Source of the DNA: Ornithobacterium rhinotracheale DSM 15997
Lineage (GTDB): Bacteria > Bacteroidota > Bacteroidia > Flavobacteriales > Weeksellaceae
Direction: 5' to 3'
Assembly: GCF_000265465.1 (NCBI RefSeq)
Contig: NC_018016.1
Coordinates: 1,183,501 to 1,247,500, forward strand
Length of the DNA stretch: 64,000 nucleotides
Of the stretch, positions 35,734 to 45,842 are shown piece by piece; the first letter of the stretch is position 1; every line of letters begins with the position of its first letter. A program made the position numbers and the translations under genes. Below the pieces are notes generated by a model. It did no database searches. It saw only the letters and a program-made list of their open reading frames with translations, and was not told where the DNA came from.

Positions 35734-36048
35734 TTATTCTCTTTCTATTTCTTCTGCACCTAGCCATTCGGCTAGTTCATCTATATTATTTAATCTCTTA
35801 GGTTCTTTCTTTTTATAGCCTACTTTGGGCATATCGGCAAGCATCATATTTAGCTCGGCAAATGTGCTTTGCATTACTTCTTTTTTGCTCAAATGCAGTT
35901 TGTGGCAGCAATAGCCCACAAAGCCAAAAACGCTATGAAAGCTCTCGCTTATTAACTCGTTTTCTCCGTCGGACTCAGATTCATCGGCTTCGTTATCCTC
36001 GTCTGCTGAATTAATCTGATAGTATTCGTAAAATCCTGCACCCCAGAA
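35734..36048 (-). CDS. T domain of tail assembly chaperone, read by -1 frameshift
   Basis: Open frame of 104 codons that has no start of its own near its beginning but reads as coding throughout: ..FWGAGFYEYYQINSADEDNE.., ..SFHSVFGFVGYCCHKLHLSK... It overlaps the end of the G gene in the -1 frame. Slipping at GCT TTT TCT (36053-36045), where a run of five T lies, would fuse it to the first 127 residues of G and give a 231-aa GT protein. This G/GT arrangement just before the tape measure is conserved in siphoviruses. Confidence 0.7.
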   Translation of the reverse strand, partial: FWGAGFYEYYQINSADEDNEADESESDGENELISESFHSVFGFVGYCCHKLHLSKKEVMQSTFAELNMMLADMPKVGYKKKEPKRLNNIDELAEWLGAEEIERE

Positions 36049-36428
36049 AAAGCGACCAGCAAACTAAACAAGTAGGACATTTCTTCTGTATTGGTGTGCT
36101 TTCTTAAACGCTTGGCAAGTCGTTTAACGCGCCAAGTGATACGCGTTTCATTGCGTATTGCCATGGCGATAATTTGCGAAATTTTACGCCCTTTGGTAGC
36201 TAAAAGCTCTAAGGCATTTTGCAGGCTGATTTCATCTTCTTTTAGGTGAATACCGGTTTCCAAAAATGCCTCACAGATTGCAATTTGGCACGCAATGCAC
36301 GGAACTTTCAAGGTTTCAACGCTAGTTTTTCGTCCAAATATTCTCAAATAAAAAGGAGCGGGGAGTGTCATTTCCACGCCCCTTTTGAGTAGAATTTTAG
36401 CCGCTTTGATTTCCGACAAACGCTCCAT
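35952..36428 (-). CDS. Tail assembly chaperone (G protein)
   Basis: 158 aa, helical, between the tail tube and tape-measure genes. Content (..AKILLKRGVEMTLPAPFYLR.., ..RNETRITWRVKRLAKRLRKH..) is not diagnostic, but the position, size and the overlapping -1 frame identify the G chaperone that, with GT, loads the tape measure for tail assembly. Confidence 0.65.
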   Translation of the reverse strand: MERLSEIKAAKILLKRGVEMTLPAPFYLRIFGRKTSVETLKVPCIACQIAICEAFLETGIHLKEDEISLQNALELLATKGRKISQIIAMAIRNETRITWRVKRLAKRLRKHTNTEEMSYLFSLLVAFSGVQDFTNTIRLIQQTRITKPMNLSPTEKTS

Positions 36429-36430
36429 TA

Positions 36431-36898
36431 TTATACTGGCTCTTTAATGCTGATTTTAGACAGCGGTTTAAAGACAATTTCCAAGAGTGCAAGCTCTTTT
36501 TTCTTGAGCTTTAAGTTCAATCTTGCAAATACCTGTGTTTTCGGAATTTTAATCACATGCCCCGTGTCTGTGGTAATCTCCAAGGCTTTAAAAATTAGCT
36601 CGCCGTCGCCCTCTTTCCATTCGTTAGATAACGAGGTTCCTCCTTTTATTTTCTTAAGAAAATCCGCCGAATAGTCGTAAGTACTAACCTTAATATCACG
36701 CTTGCCTTTCTCGTGAAAACTCACGATTGGCACATCGTTTTGGTCGCAATACTCATCTGTAAACGAGCCTTCTTCCTCTGTCATTTCAAAGGTATCGCGG
36801 TAGGTTTTGAACTCCGTCAATGAAGCCGGCATATCCGTTTCATTTTTGACATCTCCAATCTTGATGGTTTTTAATCCATATAGTGCTTTTTCTGCCAT
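36431..36898 (-). CDS. Major tail (tube) protein
   Basis: 155 aa, beta-rich (..KTIKIGDVKNETDMPASLTE.., ..FARLNLKLKKKELALLEIVF..). Located between the capsid genes and the G/GT chaperones, as for siphovirus tail tube proteins. The stop is 3 bp before the G gene. Confidence 0.7.
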   Translation of the reverse strand: MAEKALYGLKTIKIGDVKNETDMPASLTEFKTYRDTFEMTEEEGSFTDEYCDQNDVPIVSFHEKGKRDIKVSTYDYSADFLKKIKGGTSLSNEWKEGDGELIFKALEITTDTGHVIKIPKTQVFARLNLKLKKKELALLEIVFKPLSKISIKEPV

Positions 36899-36932
36899 TT
36901 TAAATGTGTTTTAAATGTGTTTTAAATATTGT

Positions 36933-37340
36933 TTAATCTTCTCTCAAGGCTTCTTTTAATTTCTCTAAGCCAATGTTGTGAGGCGCTTTTTTTCCAAATT
37001 TCTCCGCATACATTGCAAGGAGTGAAGCCCTTTCAGCCTCCGCCTCTGACACTTCTGCATTTTCATCTTCATTGGTTTGTTCGCCTTGCTCCGGAGGTGT
37101 TGTGTCCGCCTCATTTGCAGGCGTTTTCGGAGCCTCATTGTTGGTCAAAACTTCCTCTCTTTTGAAAAATGAAACTTCTTTATTTTCCAAATAAGCTGCA
37201 TGATTTTCGGCTTTTTCTTTTTCATAAAAGCCCTGCCCGTCAGCGGTCAGATATACTTCTTTTAAATCCGGATAATTATTAAATAATTTCTCCGCTTCTG
37301 CGATTAAAACGATTGCTGTGATTGCTTTTAGTTTACTCAT
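36933..37340 (-). CDS. Mu gp35-like head protein
   Basis: 135 aa: N-terminal domain with ..FNNYPDLKEVYLTADGQGFY.. and ..EKAENHAAYLENKEV.., then an acidic linker and a C-terminal helix. This pattern occurs next to capsid genes in Mu-like phages and in HI1506-type proteins. Role probably minor capsid or head-tail joining. Confidence 0.55.
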   Translation of the reverse strand: MSKLKAITAIVLIAEAEKLFNNYPDLKEVYLTADGQGFYEKEKAENHAAYLENKEVSFFKREEVLTNNEAPKTPANEADTTPPEQGEQTNEDENAEVSEAEAERASLLAMYAEKFGKKAPHNIGLEKLKEALRED

Positions 37341-37391
37341 AATTTGATAGTTTAAAGCAGTGGGCTTTTGCGCCCACTACTGGGTTAATGT

Positions 37392-38333
37392 TTAGGCATT
37401 TGCTTGCTTTAATACTCCTACGCCCTCGAAGTCTTTGCGTTTTGCCCTTCCGCCAATTCTGACAAGGAATGAGTAAATATCGCCGTACCACTGAGGATCT
37501 TTCACACGCTCAAAGGTTTCAAGGTCGCCGATGGCTTTTTCGACCGTGTTCTTATTCCAAAAAATAGCCGCCTCGCTGTCGGTAGCTTCTACCACGGCAC
37601 CAAAGGCTTTGAAGTCTTTATTTTGCGCCATGACAAACACGCTAGAACGCACCAAAATATTAAAGCCCTGCACCTTGTAAATAACGCCCTCTCTGCGCTC
37701 TTGCTCGGTTACCGACTGCATATAAGTAGCCGTTAGCTGGCTATCCGCAGGGAATAAGTCTAAAAGCGCATTTGATGGAAGCAAGGCGTACATATTGCCC
37801 TCGCTCCATGCTTTCTGTGAGCGCAATAAATTCTGCATTCTCTGCAAGTCGCTAAGCGTCCATTTCTTGCGATTTCCAGTGGCATTTTCTAATAATGGTT
37901 TTGCATTTGCCCCTGTGGTCTCCAAAATGTTTTTAACAGGTAGCGACTTGTTGTCACCGATTGGCGACACTACCATATTGGTAAGCATGCCCTCTGCTAC
38001 TTCCTCTGATAAATTCGCAATATCTTGGTCTAAGACAGAACGGCGTTTATCATAGCTAAGCTCCACGGTTTCTGCATGCGGAATATGCACGGGGTCGGTA
38101 GTGTACTCGTCGATTTGATACAATACCTCTGTATCCTTTCTCTGCTTCACATCAGCGGGCAAAGTCTTACGGTTTTTTACCACCTTAGACGGCGCGCCAG
38201 CCTGTGGTATATGCACGATTTTCCCCGCTAAAATGTTTTCTGAAGACACATCGGAAATGTGATTTAAAAAGGTGTTATCCTGTTTTAATTTTTCCTCAAT
38301 GGTTTTTTTCCAAATTTCTCTTTCTAATCCCAT
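37392..38333 (-). CDS. Major capsid protein
   Basis: 313 aa, HK97-fold type by position and content: long N-terminal helix (MGLEREIWKKTIEEKLKQDN), an E-loop-like beta region (..AGKIVHIPQAGAPSKVVKNR..), and a P-domain/A-domain region ..GNMYALLPSNALLDLFPADS... It follows the protease-scaffold gene by 11 bp, so the head assembles by proteolytic maturation. Confidence 0.8.
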   Translation of the reverse strand: MGLEREIWKKTIEEKLKQDNTFLNHISDVSSENILAGKIVHIPQAGAPSKVVKNRKTLPADVKQRKDTEVLYQIDEYTTDPVHIPHAETVELSYDKRRSVLDQDIANLSEEVAEGMLTNMVVSPIGDNKSLPVKNILETTGANAKPLLENATGNRKKWTLSDLQRMQNLLRSQKAWSEGNMYALLPSNALLDLFPADSQLTATYMQSVTEQERREGVIYKVQGFNILVRSSVFVMAQNKDFKAFGAVVEATDSEAAIFWNKNTVEKAIGDLETFERVKDPQWYGDIYSFLVRIGGRAKRKDFEGVGVLKQANA

Positions 38334-38344
38334 AGTTTCTTTTT

Positions 38345-39277
38345 TTAGTTAGTTCCAAATTGTTGTTTTTTGCGCTCGGCAAAGTATTCCGGATGCTCGG
38401 CTTTGAGCGTAGCCAAGTGATTACCCTTGTCTAGTTCGTCCCAAGTCATCTTGTCAAATTTTGCCAATTTGCTCTCGTTATCTTTTAATTGTTCGGTTAC
38501 GCTTTTGCGCGCTGGCAAGGCGGCAAGTAATGCCATTGCTCCCTCATAAGGCATTGCCAAAATCGGTGCTTTCCCCGCCTCGTCTAATTTCCCAGCCTTA
38601 ACGGCTTTGTCTACTTCGGCGGTGAGTACTGCGGTTTGTCTTTCGGTTTCAGCTTTTTTCAACTGATCAATTTCTGCCTTTAAGGCTACTTTCTCCGTTT
38701 CCGAGGCAGTAAGCTTTGCCTCAATGCTTTTAACGGCATTCAAAATTGCCGATTCGTTTGCATTTTCTTCTAGCTGTAAATGTGCTGTAAGTTCTTTCAT
38801 TTCATTTTTTGTTTTGATATATTCATTTTCTGCTTGTAAACAAATGGCTTTAATTTCTTGCTCGCTCAAAGTATCTCCATTTTGATTGTATAACACAACG
38901 GAGGCGGCATTAGAGGGGATAGCACAAATGGAGGCTTCGGTTAATTCACACTTAGTAAGTGTAAGCACGCCATTTTCCATCACCATATCTTTTGGATTAA
39001 AAGTAAAGCCCATGCTGCAACCTTTGAGAACGCCTCGCTCCACCTTGCGCACAACTTCTTTTCCGTCCACATCCTCTGTATCAAATTTGGGCGTAGCTGT
39101 AAGCAAATGCTCCTCAACCGATACATCCTCCCAACTGCCTAATACATCTTTTGTGTTATTTCTGTGGTTATTTAAGCACACAGGATTAGACAAAAAACGC
39201 TTTAAGTTTATTCCAGCGGTTTTAACCCTAAACCCGTAGGAATTAGTCACTCGCTCATCGTTTAATATGAATTTCAT
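38345..39277 (-). CDS. Prohead protease fused to scaffold
   Basis: 310 aa. The N-terminal half is an S78-type prohead protease (..RFLSNPVCLNNHRNNTKDVL.. with the catalytic His; ..LKGCSMGFTFN.. with the catalytic Ser). The C-terminal half is a coiled-coil scaffold (..AKLTASETEKVALKAEIDQL..) as in Mu gpI. First gene of the leftward late operon. Confidence 0.85.
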   Translation of the reverse strand: MKFILNDERVTNSYGFRVKTAGINLKRFLSNPVCLNNHRNNTKDVLGSWEDVSVEEHLLTATPKFDTEDVDGKEVVRKVERGVLKGCSMGFTFNPKDMVMENGVLTLTKCELTEASICAIPSNAASVVLYNQNGDTLSEQEIKAICLQAENEYIKTKNEMKELTAHLQLEENANESAILNAVKSIEAKLTASETEKVALKAEIDQLKKAETERQTAVLTAEVDKAVKAGKLDEAGKAPILAMPYEGAMALLAALPARKSVTEQLKDNESKLAKFDKMTWDELDKGNHLATLKAEHPEYFAERKKQQFGTN

Positions 39278-39301
39278 GGCTTGGTATTTTTTCGTTTACA
39301 G

Positions 39302-39454: not shown

Positions 39455-39919
39455 ATGGCAAAGAAAGGACGATTGACAAATAAGGAAAGAGAGCAAAAAA
39501 AAGAGTACGCTAAAATGCTCTTTTTGCAAGAAAAAAACATCAGCATTAAAGAGCTAGCCGAGCGCGTGGGCGTAGCGGTAAACACTGCCTCCGAGTGGAT
39601 TAAATCCGAGAAGTGGGAGGGCTTAAAGCGCAACATTTTACTCACACGCCAAGAGCAACTCGTGCAAATGCAAGATGAGCTTGCGGAAATCAACGCTTAT
39701 ATTCAAAGCCAAGAGGAGGGCTACCGATTTGCCGATTACAAAACCGCCCAAATCAGAAATCAGCTGATTAAAAATATCAAGGATTTAGAAACTAAAGCAC
39801 TACTCCCTGAGATGATTAATGCGCTCACGCAGTTCTTGGATTTTGTGCGGGTTGAAAATCTAGACGATGCCCAACTATTGGCAGACTACACCGACGCATT
39901 TATTAAATCAAAACTTTAA
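39455..39919 (+). CDS. Terminase small subunit (Mu gp27-like)
   Basis: 154 aa with a clear HTH: ..NISIKELAERVGVAVNTASE.. followed by WIKSEKW, then a helical oligomerisation region. First gene of the rightward late operon and followed by the large terminase (4-bp gap), so it is the DNA-recognition subunit for headful packaging of host-flanked Mu-type DNA. Confidence 0.8.
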   Translation: MAKKGRLTNKEREQKKEYAKMLFLQEKNISIKELAERVGVAVNTASEWIKSEKWEGLKRNILLTRQEQLVQMQDELAEINAYIQSQEEGYRFADYKTAQIRNQLIKNIKDLETKALLPEMINALTQFLDFVRVENLDDAQLLADYTDAFIKSKL

Positions 39920-39923
39920 GGCT

Positions 39924-41438
39924 ATGCTTATAACCAAGAGATTAACACCCGAAGACCGCAAGGCGTTAGAGTTTTGGGAGCGATATTATACCAACCTACG
40001 CCAAAAAGCCAGCGTGGATTTATCCGAAACCGCCACGGAAATTGAACGCAGAAAAAAGCGTTTAGAGGCAAACCCCGAGGAGTGGTTTAAATACTATTTC
40101 CACAAGTATTATAAATGTGAACCGGCGGCATTTCATAAAGCCAGTACCAAGAGAATTACCGAAAATATGGAATGGTACGAGGTGCGCGCATGGTCGCGTG
40201 AGCTTGCCAAATCAGCGCGTGCCATGATGGAATTTACTTACTTAGCCCTCACCGGTAAAAAGAAGTTTATCATCATTGCCTCGGCGACCAATGAATCTGC
40301 TAAACGCCTTTTAACGCCGTTTAAAAGTGCTTTTGAAAGTAACACGCGCATCATTCACGACTATGGCATTCAGCAAAACCACGGCAACTGGAGAGATGAT
40401 CAATTCACAATAAGAAAAGGTGCCATGTTTATTGCTGTGGGGGCAGGAAATTCGCCCCGTGGATCAAGAAATGAAGAAGTGAGACCCGACGCCATTCTAG
40501 TGGACGACTTCGATACGGATGAAGACTGCAGAAACCCAGACACCGTGGATAAAAAGTGGGCGTGGTTTGAAAAAGCGTTATACGCTACTCGTTCCGTTTC
40601 AGAGCCTATTACAGTACTGTTTAACGGAAACATCATTGCCGACTATTGCTGTATCAAAAAAGCCATAGAAATGGCAGACCACACGGATATTATAAACATA
40701 CGGGACAAAAACAACAAATCCACTTGGCCACAAAAAAACACCGAGGAGCATATCGACCGAACATTGTCCAAAATATCGGCGCAAGCGGTGCAGGGCGAAT
40801 ATTTTAATAACCCTATCAGCTTGGGGAAAGTTTTTAAGGAGATAAGCTATGGTAAAGTATTACCACTCAAAAAATACAAATTCCTTGTTTCCTACACCGA
40901 CCCCTCTTACAAGAAAAACGGAGACTTTAAGGCGACAGCTTTGGTGGGCAAGTACAAAGACGAGTACCATGTAATTGATATGTTTTGTCAAAAAAACACT
41001 ACCGCCAAAATGCTGGAGCACCTTTACGAAACCTATAAGAAAACCTCCAGCGCGGGCGTATCTGTGTACTATTACATTGAATACCCTTGGATTGACGACC
41101 CCCTAAAACGAGAGATTAAAAAGGCGAACAAACGCTATAACATAACACTCCCGCTGAAAGCCGATGAGCGTAAAAAAACCGAGAAGTTCTACCGAATTGA
41201 GAGCAATTTAGAGCCGCTTAACCGCAATGGCAAATTAATATTTAACGAGGAACTAAAAGGGCGAGAAGATATGAAAGAAACGGAGTTCCAATTTTTAGCC
41301 TTGTCGCCAAAATCTAGAGCGCACGACGACGCTCCAGACGCCGTGGAGGGTGCCGTGTGGATTGTAAACCACAAAAATTTACAAGGCGACCACACGCCCA
41401 AGGTGTACCAAAAAGCTAAGAACAAAAAAAGATATTAA
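39924..41438 (+). CDS. Terminase large subunit (Mu gp28-like)
   Basis: About 504 aa from 39924 (MLITKRLTPEDRKALEFWER); the frame is open upstream but that part overlaps the small-subunit gene. ATPase-type region ..AMMEFTYLALTGKKKFIIIA.., Walker-B-like ..PDAILVDDFDTDEDC.. and a nuclease region ..FLVSYTDPSYKKNGDFKATA.. with ..HDDAPDAVEGAVW.. (acidic metal ligands). Packages DNA into proheads. Confidence 0.88.
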   Translation: MLITKRLTPEDRKALEFWERYYTNLRQKASVDLSETATEIERRKKRLEANPEEWFKYYFHKYYKCEPAAFHKASTKRITENMEWYEVRAWSRELAKSARAMMEFTYLALTGKKKFIIIASATNESAKRLLTPFKSAFESNTRIIHDYGIQQNHGNWRDDQFTIRKGAMFIAVGAGNSPRGSRNEEVRPDAILVDDFDTDEDCRNPDTVDKKWAWFEKALYATRSVSEPITVLFNGNIIADYCCIKKAIEMADHTDIINIRDKNNKSTWPQKNTEEHIDRTLSKISAQAVQGEYFNNPISLGKVFKEISYGKVLPLKKYKFLVSYTDPSYKKNGDFKATALVGKYKDEYHVIDMFCQKNTTAKMLEHLYETYKKTSSAGVSVYYYIEYPWIDDPLKREIKKANKRYNITLPLKADERKKTEKFYRIESNLEPLNRNGKLIFNEELKGREDMKETEFQFLALSPKSRAHDDAPDAVEGAVWIVNHKNLQGDHTPKVYQKAKNKKRY

Positions 41439-41441
41439 ACC

Positions 41442-41852
41442 ATGTTTATAGAAATTGAAGAATTAAAGACTCATTGCCGAGAGGCAAAGCTTAAAAGAAT
41501 TATCGAAAACGACGAGACCATCGCGCTCGCTGCACTGGATATGGCCATTGATTTTGCTTCTTCCAAACTGATGAAAACCTACGACACGGGGGCTATTTTC
41601 TCTGCCACGGATTGCGACAGAAGCCCGCTACTGGTTAAGTTTATAAAAGACATTGCGATTTGGGAAATCATCACACTGGCAACACCTGGCATTGATTACG
41701 AAGACAAGAAATTCCGTTATCAAGAGGCTGTGAATTGGCTTACCGCCGTTTACAAAGGAATGCCAGCAAATCTTCCCAGACTAATGGAAGAAGAAAAAGG
41801 CGTTAAATCATTTTCCTATCATTCTAACCCACCGCGTAAAAACTACTACTAA
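41442..41852 (+). CDS. Mu gp36-like head-tail protein (DUF1320 type)
   Basis: 136 aa, helical; begins MFIEIEELKTHCREAKLKRI. Size and ..AALDMAIDFASSKLMKTYD.. fit gp36-like connector proteins. Between terminase and portal, each 2-3 bp apart. Confidence 0.65.
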   Translation: MFIEIEELKTHCREAKLKRIIENDETIALAALDMAIDFASSKLMKTYDTGAIFSATDCDRSPLLVKFIKDIAIWEIITLATPGIDYEDKKFRYQEAVNWLTAVYKGMPANLPRLMEEEKGVKSFSYHSNPPRKNYY

Positions 41853-41854
41853 TT

Positions 41855-43153
41855 ATGAGCAAAATTGGATTTAAACAAAAGAATAGCCAAAAAAAGACTT
41901 TAAACATTAGCCAAGTGCTAGTGGTAAAACCCGAAAGGCACAGCTCCTTAGATATTGAAAACTGGATAACCGCTATCTCGCAGGCTTATCGAGGCAGGCG
42001 TCAAAAGCTCGTGGAGCTTTACAATAACTTACTAATGGACGGCGTACTATACGAAGCCATGGACAAGCGTGTGCGCGCCATAACGAATGCCAATCTCACC
42101 TTTCAAAAAGACGGCAAAGAGATAGAGGAGCTTTGGGACTTGATAGACACGCCCGAATTTGAAAAATTACTCCGTGAAATTTTACTTTCTAAATTTTACG
42201 GCAAATCCATCGTGGAGCTTGATTTTTCAAATGGTTTTAAGGTGCAAAGTATCGACCGCCGACACATTGACACGCTGCATAAGTTAATTTTAAAAGACAC
42301 CTCCAGCGATGAGGGCATTCCTTACGAGGATAACGATTTTATTTTAAACATTGGCGATGATAAAGACTTAGGGATATTTGCGCGCACGGCACCTTACGCC
42401 ATATTTAAACGAAATGGAGGTGCAGATTATGCGCAATTCTGCGAGCTGTTTGGCATTCCGCAGCTCATCGGAAAATACGACCCCGACGATGAAAATGGAC
42501 AGAAAGAAATGGAGGAATCGTTTAGGAAACGAGGGGCGGCGGCTGATATGGTTTTAAGCAATAAAAGCTCGGTAGAAACCTTGCAAACCAGTCAATCCAA
42601 CGGCGCAGTGCATCGTGAGTTTTTGGAGCATTGGGACAAACAAATATTAATCAGCGCACAGGGGCAAACGATGACCACCACCGATGGAACTTCACTCGCT
42701 CAGGCAAAAGTGCATGGCAACACAGAAAACGACCTAAACAAAGCAGATAAAATCTTTGTTCGTCGCTTTTTAAACCAAGAGCTTAAACCGCGACTTGAAA
42801 AAAGAGGCTATCCAGTAGCGGGCGGCTTCTTTAATTTCATCGACGAAAAAGAAGATTTAAAAGCCATAGACAAATTAAGTGTTGCCGAGCGTGTAAATCA
42901 GCTTACCGCCGATGGTGTAGATGATGATTACTTCTATGAGGAATTTGGATTGCCTCGAGGGGCTAAGAGCAAAGAACGAGAGCAAGAAGAACCTGCAGAC
43001 GAACCAGAAGAAGAGGAAATCCAAACGGATGACCCCCCTAAGGAAAAACATAAAAACAAACCAAAAAACACGCCCAAAGTCAAAAAAGTACAAGCCAAAG
43101 ATTTATCCTTATTTGACAAGCTAAAGGATTTTTTCGCCCACGCTCCTCGGTAG
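41855..43153 (+). CDS. Portal protein (Mu gp29-like)
   Basis: 432 aa, DUF935 family: ..DNLLMDGVLYEAM-type region (..LLMDGVLYEAMDKRVRAITN..), ..EKLLREILLSKFYGKSIVEL.., ..YAQFCELFGIPQLIGKYD.., ..RRFLNQELKPRLEKRGYP... Forms the DNA gate of the head. The C-terminal 80 residues are highly charged linker (Glu/Lys/Pro). Near its end a -1 frameshift signal leads into the MuF frame, so part of the protein may be made as a portal-MuF fusion. Confidence 0.88.
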   Translation: MSKIGFKQKNSQKKTLNISQVLVVKPERHSSLDIENWITAISQAYRGRRQKLVELYNNLLMDGVLYEAMDKRVRAITNANLTFQKDGKEIEELWDLIDTPEFEKLLREILLSKFYGKSIVELDFSNGFKVQSIDRRHIDTLHKLILKDTSSDEGIPYEDNDFILNIGDDKDLGIFARTAPYAIFKRNGGADYAQFCELFGIPQLIGKYDPDDENGQKEMEESFRKRGAAADMVLSNKSSVETLQTSQSNGAVHREFLEHWDKQILISAQGQTMTTTDGTSLAQAKVHGNTENDLNKADKIFVRRFLNQELKPRLEKRGYPVAGGFFNFIDEKEDLKAIDKLSVAERVNQLTADGVDDDYFYEEFGLPRGAKSKEREQEEPADEPEEEEIQTDDPPKEKHKNKPKNTPKVKKVQAKDLSLFDKLKDFFAHAPR

Positions 43154-43174
43154 AACTTAGCCTATACGAGGAGC
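43129..43174 (+). promoter_or_regulatory. Programmed -1 frameshift signal, portal to MuF
   Basis: Slippery heptamer T TTT TTC in the portal frame (43129-43135), a 6-nt spacer (GCCCAC), then a perfect 8-bp stem GCTCCTCG (43142-43149) / CGAGGAGC (43167-43174) with a 17-nt loop. The portal stop TAG (43151-43153) is inside the loop. Confidence 0.75.
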
Positions 43175-44529
43175 TGGATTGGCAGGCTCTGGAAAAAGAG
43201 TATAAAGGTTGCTGTGGGCAAGTTGAACAAGCCCATCTTTCCGCTGGATTTGATACCGAATTTAGGCAGGAATTTACAAAGCTCATGAAAGAAATGTATT
43301 TGCAAAAAAACAAGCATTCTTTGCGGCATAAAGGTGTCGTTCGAGCCACTTTCAACAAATTATGGCAAGGGGTAGAGGGGGAAATAAAACCTATCATAAA
43401 TGAGGATTTAAAAATTGAAAATGCTCCATTTATCCAAAAAATGAAAGACAATGTTTGGGAGTTTTCTATGGCTAAAAATACCGCTGACAATATTGCACTA
43501 AATAACGCACTTATTTCTCCAAATGGAAAAGTGAGAAGCTGGAATGAGTTTAGAAAGGAAGCTCTAAAAATCATTGACCGCTCAGCTCGTTATTTAAAAA
43601 CAGAGTATAACACGGCTGTAGCCAGTGCTCGCATGGCGGCAAAATGGGAAAGATTTCAAAGAGAAAAACACATATACCCTTATGCTAAATTCTTTGTCGT
43701 TCAAGATAACCATACCTCCGATATTTGCGCGCCTCTGCATGGTGTAGTAGTGCCATGGGATCATCCATTACTTAAAACGCATTTTCCTCCCAATCACTTC
43801 AATTGCCGTACAGATGTGGAAGCCGTAAGATATGAGGAACCTACACCGAACGAACAAATAAAAGCACCCGATATTCCTCAAAATTTCAGAAATAACATAG
43901 GGATTACCGGAAAGATATTTGCAGAAAATAGCCTGTATTTTGAAAAGCTAAATGAATACTTTACAGAAGACGAACAAAAGGTTATTCTAGGAGAATTAAT
44001 GTCGGAAGAACAAAGTTTTGTTTCTAGATATGTAAGCGAAAAAACAGAGGGTGTATTGAGAGTAAACATTAATCCCGATCTAAAAGATTTACCTACAAAT
44101 TTATACTTGGGTAAACTTATAGTGGACGACCACAAAGCCAAAGTAGATATTTTAGCACATCTCGAGGGTAGAAAAAATCCCGAATTTAGGATTGATGGAA
44201 TTATTGGAGATGCTACCAATAGAAATAAAGACACTAAACCTCAAAATTTCATCACTAATTCTGTTAGAAAGCTTTATGATAGTGAACAATTGGGAGGATT
44301 TGACAAGGCTTGTTTAGTGATGAATTTTGGAGAAATAAATAATGTTTCTGTAAAAAACAAAAAACGAGCGGCTTCTGAATTACAAGAAAGTTTTAAGAAA
44401 TTTGACAAATTAGAATTTGTGATTTTATTTGCTAATGGAAAAGTTTGGAGAATTGACAGAGTTACTGCTTTAATGACTCCATCAAATGACTTTAAAATAA
44501 AATTTGCACAATTTATTGATAAAAAATAA
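43135..44529 (+). CDS. MuF-type head morphogenesis protein with C-terminal CdiA-like toxin domain
   Basis: Coding frame of 464 codons that runs on from the portal in the -1 frame; there is no ATG, GTG or TTG before 43285, although residues before it (..VELSLYEELDWQALEKEYKG..) are clearly coding. MuF region: ..YKGCCGQVEQAHLSAGFDTE.., ..ILRSARYL-type helices and ..DNHTSDICAPLHGVVVPWDH.., ..FPPNHFNCRTDVEAV.. (the conserved MuF Cys/His cluster). After about 43860 a different, AT-richer domain follows: ..GRKNPEFRIDGIIGDATNRN.., ..QNFITNSVRKLYDSEQ.., ..FVILFANGKVWRIDRV, resembling CdiA C-terminal nucleases. No immunity gene is evident next to it. Confidence 0.75.
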   Translation, partial: RPRSSVELSLYEELDWQALEKEYKGCCGQVEQAHLSAGFDTEFRQEFTKLMKEMYLQKNKHSLRHKGVVRATFNKLWQGVEGEIKPIINEDLKIENAPFIQKMKDNVWEFSMAKNTADNIALNNALISPNGKVRSWNEFRKEALKIIDRSARYLKTEYNTAVASARMAAKWERFQREKHIYPYAKFFVVQDNHTSDICAPLHGVVVPWDHPLLKTHFPPNHFNCRTDVEAVRYEEPTPNEQIKAPDIPQNFRNNIGITGKIFAENSLYFEKLNEYFTEDEQKVILGELMSEEQSFVSRYVSEKTEGVLRVNINPDLKDLPTNLYLGKLIVDDHKAKVDILAHLEGRKNPEFRIDGIIGDATNRNKDTKPQNFITNSVRKLYDSEQLGGFDKACLVMNFGEINNVSVKNKKRAASELQESFKKFDKLEFVILFANGKVWRIDRVTALMTPSNDFKIKFAQFIDKK

Positions 44530-44533
44530 ACTT

Positions 44534-44558
44534 GGGCAAGTAGATTGCCTACTTGCCC
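44534..44558 (+). other. Perfect 10-bp hairpin after the MuF-toxin gene
   Basis: GGGCAAGTAG / CTACTTGCCC with loop ATTGC, 5 bp after the stop codon. There is no T-run, so it is not a standard terminator; a second small stem CCGCA/TGCGG follows. It may stabilise mRNA or mark the edge of an exchanged toxin module. Confidence 0.55.
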
Positions 44559-44635
44559 GCATTCATCTGCGGATTGGTTTGCACCGCTCCGACTTGTCTT
44601 GCAAATATACAAAAACTAAACCAAATAATAAACAA

Positions 44636-45160
44636 ATGAATAGAAATTTAGAACAGGTGATGCGTGCCATAGAACAAAGAACGCATCAATTTTTAGATGA
44701 TTTGCCAATTATAATAGCAAACGAGGCTTTACTTTTCGCCAAAGAAAATTTTGACCAGCAAAGTTGGCAAGGAAGTAGCGTAGAGCCTTGGGCTCCGAGA
44801 AAAGACAAAGAAAATGAAAGGAGTTTGCTTGTCAATACCGGTAATTTACGACGAAGTATTGATAAGGAAAACGCCAAAATAGAGCCCAAAGCCAATGGGG
44901 TAACGATAACTATCGGTAGTGATGTCCCCTATGCCCGCGCACATAATTTTGGGTTTTCTGGCGTTGTAGAACAAAATGTGGGAGAGCATCGCCGAAAGTC
45001 TAAAAAAGGAAAAGAATACTTTGTAAAAGCCCATAGAAGAAATATGAAAATGAATATCCCTAAGCGACAATTTATCGGAGACTTTAACGATAGCCCTATT
45101 TTTGCCGATAAAATTAAGGAAATCATAAAATTAGAAGCTAAGAAAATAACGAATATTTAA
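44636..45160 (+). CDS. Virion morphogenesis protein (Mu gpG / gp31-like)
   Basis: 174 aa from 44636 (MNRNLEQVMRAIEQRTHQFL); the upstream in-frame extension would run through the hairpins and MuF end and is unlikely. Features of phage_tail_S / gpG: ..SVEPWAPRKDKENERSLLVN.., ..GNLRRSIDKENAKIEPKAN.., ..SDVPYARAHNFG.., ..IPKRQFIGDF.... Completes heads or joins tails. Confidence 0.8.
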   Translation: MNRNLEQVMRAIEQRTHQFLDDLPIIIANEALLFAKENFDQQSWQGSSVEPWAPRKDKENERSLLVNTGNLRRSIDKENAKIEPKANGVTITIGSDVPYARAHNFGFSGVVEQNVGEHRRKSKKGKEYFVKAHRRNMKMNIPKRQFIGDFNDSPIFADKIKEIIKLEAKKITNI

Positions 45161-45163
45161 ACC

Positions 45164-45595
45164 ATGAAAAAACTCTATTTAAAACTCTTTGAAATGCTAA
45201 AAGAAATCCCAGAAATAAATTATATTGATTTAAACTATGGGCAGCTATTCGAGAGCAAACCACCGCTTGATTATCCCGCTGTATTGATTGGAATTAACAT
45301 TATAAGTTCCGACGACTTTCATAATGTATTCCAGCAAATAAACGCAGATTTCACGCTTACCATTGTAGATAAGCACTGGGATACGGACTCGCTAACAGAG
45401 GACGAGCGCAGAGAGCAGGCGTTATCTTATTTAGATTTGTCGGAAAAAATATACAGAAAATTGCAAGGCTACGAGGATGCGCATTTCGAAACCTTTTCAC
45501 GCATAAGCGTTACGGAGCAACCTTTGAGAAAAGGTTTAAGGATAATTGCCGAGCGTTATTCTTGTGGCTGGAAGGAGGATTGTGCCACACCATAA
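45164..45595 (+). CDS. Head-tail joining / tail completion protein
   Basis: 143 aa, beginning MKKLYLKLFEMLKEIPEINY, with ..FTLTIVDKHWDTDSLTEDER... Position after gpG and size fit a Mu gp37-like or tail-terminator protein. Its 3' end overlaps the convergent HTH gene by 86 bp. Confidence 0.6.
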   Translation: MKKLYLKLFEMLKEIPEINYIDLNYGQLFESKPPLDYPAVLIGINIISSDDFHNVFQQINADFTLTIVDKHWDTDSLTEDERREQALSYLDLSEKIYRKLQGYEDAHFETFSRISVTEQPLRKGLRIIAERYSCGWKEDCATP

Positions 45596-45842
45596 ACGGG
45601 TATATTTTGCGCAATGCCGGCACATCTACACCTTGGCGCTCCAGCCTATATAGATTACTAGAATTCTTGTTAATAATGGCATTTATGCGATTTTGAGTAA
45701 GGTCAAATTCAAGGCTTAAAGCCTCCATACAACGCGAATATTTATACTCCAAAATGTGGGAGTAATAATAATAGCGCGCTACGAGTTTTTCGTTGCGATA
45801 ACGGAGCAGCCCTGTATTTCTGCCTTTTGAATTGATTGCCAT
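45510..45842 (-). CDS. Small HTH protein, candidate late-gene activator
   Basis: 110 aa, basic and Tyr-rich, with HTH-like spacing ..MEALSLEFDLTQNRINAIIN... It lies after the early-operon terminator and before the late operons, exactly where Mu has Mor and C. It could bind the paired ATAGTGCTA sites at 39349-39391. This role is inferred from place and motif only. Confidence 0.5.
   Translation of the reverse strand: MAINSKGRNTGLLRYRNEKLVARYYYYSHILEYKYSRCMEALSLEFDLTQNRINAIINKNSSNLYRLERQGVDVPALRKIYPFMVWHNPPSSHKNNARQLSLNLFSKVAP

Follow-up and report, generated by a model that had tools for sequence, protein, structure and literature searches.

How does a phage translate a head protein whose reading frame has no start codon where its sequence begins? 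This question is raised by the junction between the portal and MuF genes in a 64,000-nucleotide stretch of the Ornithobacterium rhinotracheale DSM 15997 genome (assembly GCF_000265465.1, contig NC_018016.1, positions 1,183,501 to 1,247,500 of the forward strand), hereafter the window. The window holds a prophage that we name Mu-like from its portal and MuF families, beyond which terminase and adaptor were also searched for. Its MuF frame lies at -1 relative to the portal gene and, counted from a slippery heptamer near the portal end, runs for 52 codons without ATG, GTG or TTG (the first-pass annotation of this DNA had given 50), the first such codon being the ATG at 43285, codon 53. The site is very probably a -1 programmed ribosomal frameshift signal through which the phage would make both the portal and a portal-MuF fusion, a reading drawn from sequence comparison.

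Anatomy of the portal-MuF junction

The 3' end of the portal gene reads GAT TTT TTC GCC CAC GCT CCT CGG TAG, with T_TTT_TTC in slippery phase, that is, an X_XXY_YYZ heptamer in the 0 frame ahead of the stop (Table 1). Six bases further on begins a perfect stem of 8 base pairs (bp), with the portal stop in its loop. The first-pass annotation had pointed to this same succession of heptamer, 6-nucleotide (nt) spacer and stem around the stop, which we recovered at 43129-43174. In -1 frameshifting, a stimulatory structure is expected about 5-8 nt downstream of the heptamer (PMC4066793, in its consulted part), and the 6-nt spacer and 8-bp stem of the window lie at that distance. The predicted fold lengthens the stem by GTAG/CTAT pairs on the inside and CCA/TGG pairs on the outside, and the 72 nt that start at the heptamer reach -24.7 kcal/mol (z -2.3), a value equalled by 2 of 200 shuffled sequences. 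The T6C string occurs 75 times on the two strands of the window, seven times in phase within a stop-to-stop frame of at least 100 codons. When any X_XXY_YYZ was admitted, provided that it lay in a 0-frame open reading frame (ORF) of at least 100 codons ending at most 20 codons further on and that the -1 frame stayed open for at least 80 codons, three window sites passed, and only the portal-MuF site is followed by a strong hairpin (-21.8 versus -5.1 and -1.3 kcal/mol).

The -1 frame is open through the overlap and, in close relatives, MuF homology extends back to the slip site. The earlier claim that the codons ahead of the first ATG encode protein is supported by this homology and, to a modest degree, by the codon-position test discussed below. 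Besides PF04233, the window MuF matches TIGR01641 (SPP1 gp7) at 55 bits, above the cut-off of 39.65. Slippage is predicted to give a product of 891 amino acids (aa; 102.7 kDa) beside an unslipped portal of 432 aa (49.5 kDa), the two lengths in aa being those first computed. The predicted tryptic peptide across the slip, DFFRPR, has just six residues.

Table 1. Features of the portal-MuF junction in window coordinates
Feature	Coordinates	Strand	Evidence
Portal gene (Portal_Mu, PF06074), default 0-frame product of 432 aa	41855..43153	+	Pfam PF06074, 224.9 bits (cut-off 23.9)
Slippery heptamer T_TTT_TTC	43129..43135	+	Sequence; also present in relatives
Spacer GCCCAC (6 nt), heptamer to stem	43136..43141	+	Sequence
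Stem-loop	43142..43174	+	Folding; GCTCCTCG (43142-43149) pairs with CGAGGAGC (43167-43174)
Inner stem pairs GTAG/CTAT	43150-43153 / 43162-43165	+	Folding
Portal stop TAG, within the loop of the stem-loop; would be bypassed by a -1 shift	43151..43153	+	Sequence
MuF, -1 frame; 464 codons after the slip, then TAA (44527-44529)	43135..44529	+	PF04233, 56 bits (cut-off 29.6)
Variable C-terminal domain of MuF	43912..44526	+	54% identity between window and locus L018

Conservation in homologous junctions and motif-only matches

We assembled 121 loci with a Mu-type portal from IMG/VR, GTDB contigs, genomes of relatives, of the phylum and of the order, and GenBank phages (19 of 272 matched records, plus two Mu records taken by accession); one of the searches of relatives' genomes examined 48 of 54 places, 30 of which entered as loci. 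The named GTDB loci with a Mu-type portal are all Bacteroidota. Removal of 12 identical junctions left 109, in which portal and MuF were located by profiles built from the locus set itself. MuF was found at 86 of them, in the -1 frame at 64, in +1 at 12, in frame 0 at five and fused to the portal at five, and the profile search found no MuF at the other 23. Among the 64 junctions with a -1 MuF, 56 have no nearby ATG, defined as none from -30 to +12 of the portal stop, with GTG and TTG allowed by the filter. An in-frame X_XXY_YYZ is present in the last 60 nt of the portal at 55 of these 56, a strict heptamer (TTTTTTC, AAAAAAG, AAAAAAA or GGGAAAG) at 54, and T_TTT_TTC itself at 37; the sole junction devoid of a heptamer (L039) has an ATG 29 nt past the portal stop. 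Strict heptamers in the same 60 nt were found at none of the 12 junctions with MuF in +1, at none of the 23 where no MuF was found, at one of the eight with a -1 MuF that has its own ATG (Bacteroides hankyphage p00), and at one of the five with MuF in frame 0 (L022, with a broken MuF). The one in five of the fused group is uninformative, the last 60 nt there being the end of MuF.

The heptamer is conserved beyond what the protein needs, since 39 of 40 sites have a codon with a final T ahead of TTT TTC, whichever of eight residues it encodes (D, P, R, S, N, G, Y or C). The fortieth site (L063) has the variant heptamer A_AAT_TTT with the same spacer and stem. The bodies of portal genes, 44,752 codons in all, hold three in-phase copies of T_TTT_TTC, of which two mark the junctions of fused genes (L071 and L120, see below). 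From the heptamer to the MuF domain there is no ATG at 19 of 55 sites and no ATG, GTG or TTG at five; counted from the heptamer, the first start codon of any kind comes after a median of 26 codons (range 3 to 104). As some of the 56 junctions have GTG or TTG near the stop, the argument from a missing start is strong for part of the sites only.

The stem is conserved as well. Folded without constraint, the 50 nt that follow T_TTT_TTC reach a mean of -18.5 kcal/mol (z -3.2) over 38 sites, compared with -7.5 elsewhere in the same loci, and 36 of the 38 fold better than 90% of control windows. With a hairpin finder restricted to stem-start offsets of 4-8, an offset of 5 or 6 was obtained for 38 of 40 sites; the stems have 6-11 pairs, which vary at every level. 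In the closest relatives (eight distinct sequences) all cells are paired; of the 12 pairs, nine are invariant and two show compensation on both sides, and shifting the stem partner by 1-3 columns cuts pairing to 32-49%. The portal stop falls in the spacer at eight of the 40 sites, in the stem-loop at 28 and beyond it at four; the constant distance is therefore the one from heptamer to stem, and not the one from stop to stem. Down to about 22-30% portal identity, relatives keep the heptamer, a spacer of 5-6 nt and a stem that covaries. The first-pass annotation had asked whether homologous phages conserve heptamer and stem, and had taken their loss in close relatives with an intact MuF as the outcome that would speak against it; what we found is the opposite, and the same elements recur in matches selected by motif only.

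For these, the pattern TTTTTTC-N6-GCCCC-N(3-14)-GGGGC, blind to genes, was run through 2.9 million IMG/VR viral contigs and gave at least 120 matches, treated here as a sample. Among the matches listed, 108 of 120 fall within the ORF of a Mu-type portal, and 107 of those are in the slippery phase; MuF follows in 104, at -1 in 86 and in the same frame in 18. The out-of-phase match in a portal ORF (L184) is yet counted within the 86. Three further matches among the 120 listed have MuF but no portal in the examined stretch, and nine have neither. A control with the reversed heptamer gave 56 stretches, none with a match inside a portal and two with a Mu-type portal elsewhere, control match and portal coordinates being compared by eye. 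A looser pattern with GCTCC gave 120 matches, 22 of them in portals and all 22 in phase, with MuF at -1 in 21 and not found in one; outside portals, two more had MuF only and the remainder lay elsewhere. Some contigs of this second scan, L278, L311 and L313 among them, belong to the homology set as well. The portal sequences of the motif matches, 119 of 130 being long enough, form 70 clusters at 70% identity, so the matches do not represent one clone.

A portal tree of 105 of the 109 junctions (L066, L104, L105 and Mu L108, all partial, were left out) was built by a quick method with support from the Shimodaira-Hasegawa-like approximate likelihood ratio test (SH-aLRT) only, and some of its long branches meet. 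Sites were labelled by heptamer, those with T_TTT_TTC as T-type; L007 and L022 were set to T by hand though damaged, and so was L063 because of its variant heptamer, A_AAT_TTT. A branch with an SH-aLRT of 100 sets 61 rows apart from the rest, and these comprise 41 T-type, 11 A/G-type, five fused and four with a separate MuF. In the other 44 rows MuF is separate or was not found, save for six A-type rows whose grouping by themselves suggests a second origin. Sites of the A/G type (including L024, L035, L023, L025, L060 and L082-L085) have A_AAA_AAG, A_AAA_AAA or G_GGA_AAG at the junction, and folding found no stem common to the 17 of them. A second Mu-type portal in the same genome, outside the window (L002, G000:C1:2292270-2293232), also has MuF at -1; its A_AAA_AAA heptamer stands 37 nt ahead of the portal stop, and a strong hairpin is lacking.

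The signal also lies in deposited phages. In hankyphage p00 (L070), whose MuF is annotated as a separate gene, T_TTT_TTC stands 46 nt ahead of the portal stop and leads into the MuF frame; its spacer has 6 nt and its stem is GCCCCG/CGGGGC. The minor head protein deposited for Elizabethkingia phage TCUEAP3 (L069) begins some 275 nt past the portal stop, and the signal predicts a coding region for it that begins at the portal junction.

Fused portal-MuF genes that carry the signal

Portal and MuF are a single ORF in some relatives, and the retention of the signal in such genes is an unexpected result that goes beyond the idea of the first-pass annotation. With the fused portal-MuF of a Porphyromonas phage as the query we recovered 35 loci. 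The two genes are fused in 32, of which 27 (16 of 20 clusters at 90% identity) retain the in-frame T_TTT_TTC, the spacer and a GC-rich stem. Of the remaining fused loci, three (L456-L458) have A-type heptamers and two (L444 and L454) none of the heptamers sought, L444 having just five T. The FF..AP motif at this place is encoded by TTT TTC, with a preceding codon that ends in T, in 27 of 27 cases, including L452, which lies outside the 32. Phe codons in the long ORFs of this set number 686 TTC and 630 TTT, and the constant choice of TTT TTC is not demanded by protein constraint. Among the five fused loci of the first set (L071, L120, L033, L065 and L121), L071 and L120, which fall in different T-type clades of the tree, have a T-type signal and L121 has an A-type heptamer, and no slippery signal was seen in L033 and L065.

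In the fused loci a -1 stop lies 16-26 codons past the heptamer, so that slippage would shorten the product, the polarity being inverted as in dnaX (27 of 32). In dnaX, translation that does not slip gives the long form (tau) and slippage at A_AAA_AAG gives the short one (gamma), with a reported "programmed efficiency of 50%"; here the proteins are those of a phage head and the heptamer is T_TTT_TTC. The distance of the -1 stop was also tried as evidence in its own right on 18 motif-selected fused genes and is weak (observed median 21, random-codon median 9); for the inverted polarity we therefore rely on the retention of heptamer and codons. In phages of the window type a slip would thus add MuF, whereas in those of the fused type it would remove it and release a short portal. 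Since the signal is also kept in fused loci, the conserved function appears to be the making of both portal and portal-MuF, not merely the reaching of MuF.

In-frame fusions with an A-type heptamer at the junction (L121, L456, L457 and L458) are perhaps the A-type counterpart of this inverted polarity. Two PHROG profiles, phrog_35074 and phrog_220, each match portal and MuF at different positions, and PHROG families probably already include fused members, filed as unknown function or minor head protein. Deposited annotations treat what is apparently one arrangement in different ways: hankyphage p00 is given separate genes, TCUEAP3 a MuF with a late start, and the Porphyromonas phage one long portal.

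Proposed mechanism, alternatives and the MuF cargo

We propose that most ribosomes would reach the portal stop and release the 432-aa portal, and that the stem 6 nt downstream would hold a ribosome at T_TTT_TTC while both tRNA-Phe re-pair one base back (TTT TTT), after which translation would continue into MuF and yield the 891-aa fusion. This fusion and the plain portal would then form a common ring of mixed subunits, with MuF and its C-terminal cargo tethered inside the head, perhaps for delivery, in a copy number set by the frequency of the slip and not by a separate start. The ratio of MuF per portal ring might thereby be fixed. The portal ring has 12 subunits, and one to two MuF copies per ring would match a slip rate of about 8-17%, in an arithmetic that borrows its copy number from another phage. 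We know of no explanation of how a phage loads only one or two MuF copies at a 12-fold portal; if the portal gene itself sets a slip rate, this would explain the MuF copy number in a large phage group. We also find it rather likely that the Mu-like phages of Bacteroidota build mosaic portal rings, some subunits bearing a covalently linked MuF (in many relatives with toxin-like cargo), and that the mix is held by one RNA element used in two opposite polarities. The element would have been preserved while the MuF frame flipped more than once, as the positions of L071 and L120 in the tree indicate, so that the mixture itself would be what selection keeps. The symmetry of the portal ring would in this case be broken by a translational programme, through which an injected protein could be dosed.

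Several observations weigh against programmed frameshifting or its suggested consequences. An equal slip frequency would give the two polarities different shares of fusion unless it were near 50%, which makes a fixed copy number conjectural. GTG or TTG occurs near the portal stop at several signal-bearing sites (e.g., L012, L106 and L075), hankyphage p00 combines the signal with an ATG for MuF, and four members of the main clade (L031, L034, L072 and L074) have a MuF that starts independently, so loss of the trait is possible. The codon-position test of the -1 frame favours coding, with 1129 changes at the third position versus 721 and 621, but gives modest support only, because the differing codons are mostly non-synonymous (1063 versus 310) and the alignment was built on proteins. 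Finally, a fold stronger than that of 90% of control windows is seen at only three of the 17 A/G-type sites.

The first two of these points about start codons bear on the alternative that survives best, in which MuF is translated independently from an internal start (in the window, the ATG at 43285) by coupling or reinitiation, heptamer and hairpin being incidental. Separate portal and MuF genes, with an annotated MuF start at the portal end, are indeed found in Mu, B3, DMS3, Alteromonadaceae B23, Vibrio 1.159 and Mushuvirus, and the hankyphage MuF is annotated from an ATG that overlaps the portal stop. Such a start is nevertheless hard to reconcile with MuF homology that reaches the slip site in close relatives, with the sites where the MuF domain is preceded by no ATG, or by no start codon of any kind, and with a heptamer whose presence and retention in fused genes it leaves unexplained. 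We consider it very improbable as the general explanation; site by site, it was judged unlikely for most and less so where a start codon is near. Marginally less probable still is transcriptional slippage, by which a T or A run would give a mixed mRNA population and ribosomes would not slip at all. Long A runs do exist among the A-type sites (L026, L030 and L068), and the lack of a shared stem makes such slippage possible at the A/G-type sites. The window run, by contrast, has just six T and is closed by a C, and the phase, the 5-6 nt spacer and the covarying stem are features of ribosomal slippage; moreover, the A_AAT_TTT of L063, with the same spacer and stem, is not predicted by a homopolymer model. 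That portal and MuF are really one ORF split by a sequencing error, or that MuF is decaying, is scarcely credible despite the true single-ORF relatives (the five of the first set) and the damaged look of L007 and L022, and it was rejected by recurrence across many different assemblies, the -1 arrangement being present in 56 distinct homology-selected junctions and in 86 motif-only ones among the matches listed, with the stop inside the stem-loop in the close relatives of the window.

Programmed frameshifting at a portal-MuF junction would have parallels among other structural genes. The major head protein of phage A2 is reportedly made with frameshifting. Capsid extensions by frameshifting are also described for picorna-like and Orsay viruses (PMC5009743, in part); as predicted here, a share of the subunits gains a C-terminal extension in all of these, but they are capsid proteins, not portals, and the extension is not MuF. 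In tail assembly chaperones (lambda G/GT; SPP1 gp17.5, with a putative frameshift at UUUUUUC according to the consulted part of PMC6316719), a -1 slip near the end of a morphogenesis gene likewise gives a short and an extended protein, whereas portal and MuF are parts of the virion head and the extension would be a large domain with cargo. The SPP1 portal gp6 and its MuF protein gp7 come from separate genes and bind non-covalently, in contrast with the covalent link, set by frameshifting, that we predict; gp7 is dispensable for assembly, but no more than about 25% of virions without gp7 are infectious (same part of PMC6316719). Microbacterium phages of clusters EA and EB also have portal and MuF in one polypeptide, described as plain fusions in the consulted part of PMC7302621, where frameshifting is mentioned for tail chaperones only.

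We found no published description of portal-MuF frameshifting in a search that covered mainly open-access papers, so that an earlier mention is possible. The word "frameshift" is absent from the main text of the MuF toxin papers (Jamet 2017; Bxa) and, in the parts consulted, from the hankyphage papers and the flavophage paper, and it occurs once, about spanins, in that of the Porphyromonas phage paper. "Portal" is absent from the first 300,000 characters of the recoding review and from the consulted part of the PRFect paper.

MuF polymorphic toxins (Jamet 2017; Bxa) have an N-terminal MuF domain and a C-terminal domain that is swapped among relatives. The window MuF shares this organization, its C-terminal domain being only 54% identical to that of L018 although the two portals are 97% identical, a rapid divergence as cargo would show, but its C-terminus matches no known toxin. 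The C-terminal 205 aa of the window MuF, like the C-termini of four relatives, match no Pfam family even at an E-value of 10, and the AlphaFold model of the window C-terminus is poor (mean predicted local distance difference test score, pLDDT, of 59), with no match in PDB at E 0.001 by Foldseek. A toxin identity was thus sought in Pfam, NCBIfam, a PDB sequence search, AlphaFold and Foldseek, and nothing usable came of it. The first-pass annotation had spoken of MuF "with its toxin", which found no support for the window, while toxin domains are recognisable in relatives. Of 45 complete MuF proteins among the 55 heptamer sites, 33 were scanned for domains, and all 33 match PF04233. Their C-terminal domains include CdiA_C (eight), LPD3 (four), PBECR2 (three), Gln_amidase (two), ART (one) and ADPrib_exo_Tox (one), and five other families match weakly, in one MuF each. 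In many relatives, how much of a head-borne toxin domain is loaded would likewise depend on the frameshift.

Around the junction, protease-like and capsid-like ORFs (36000-39300, - strand) were seen by eye opposite the terminase-portal-MuF genes (39455-45600, + strand), so that the head module looks, on this inspection, split into two divergent operons.
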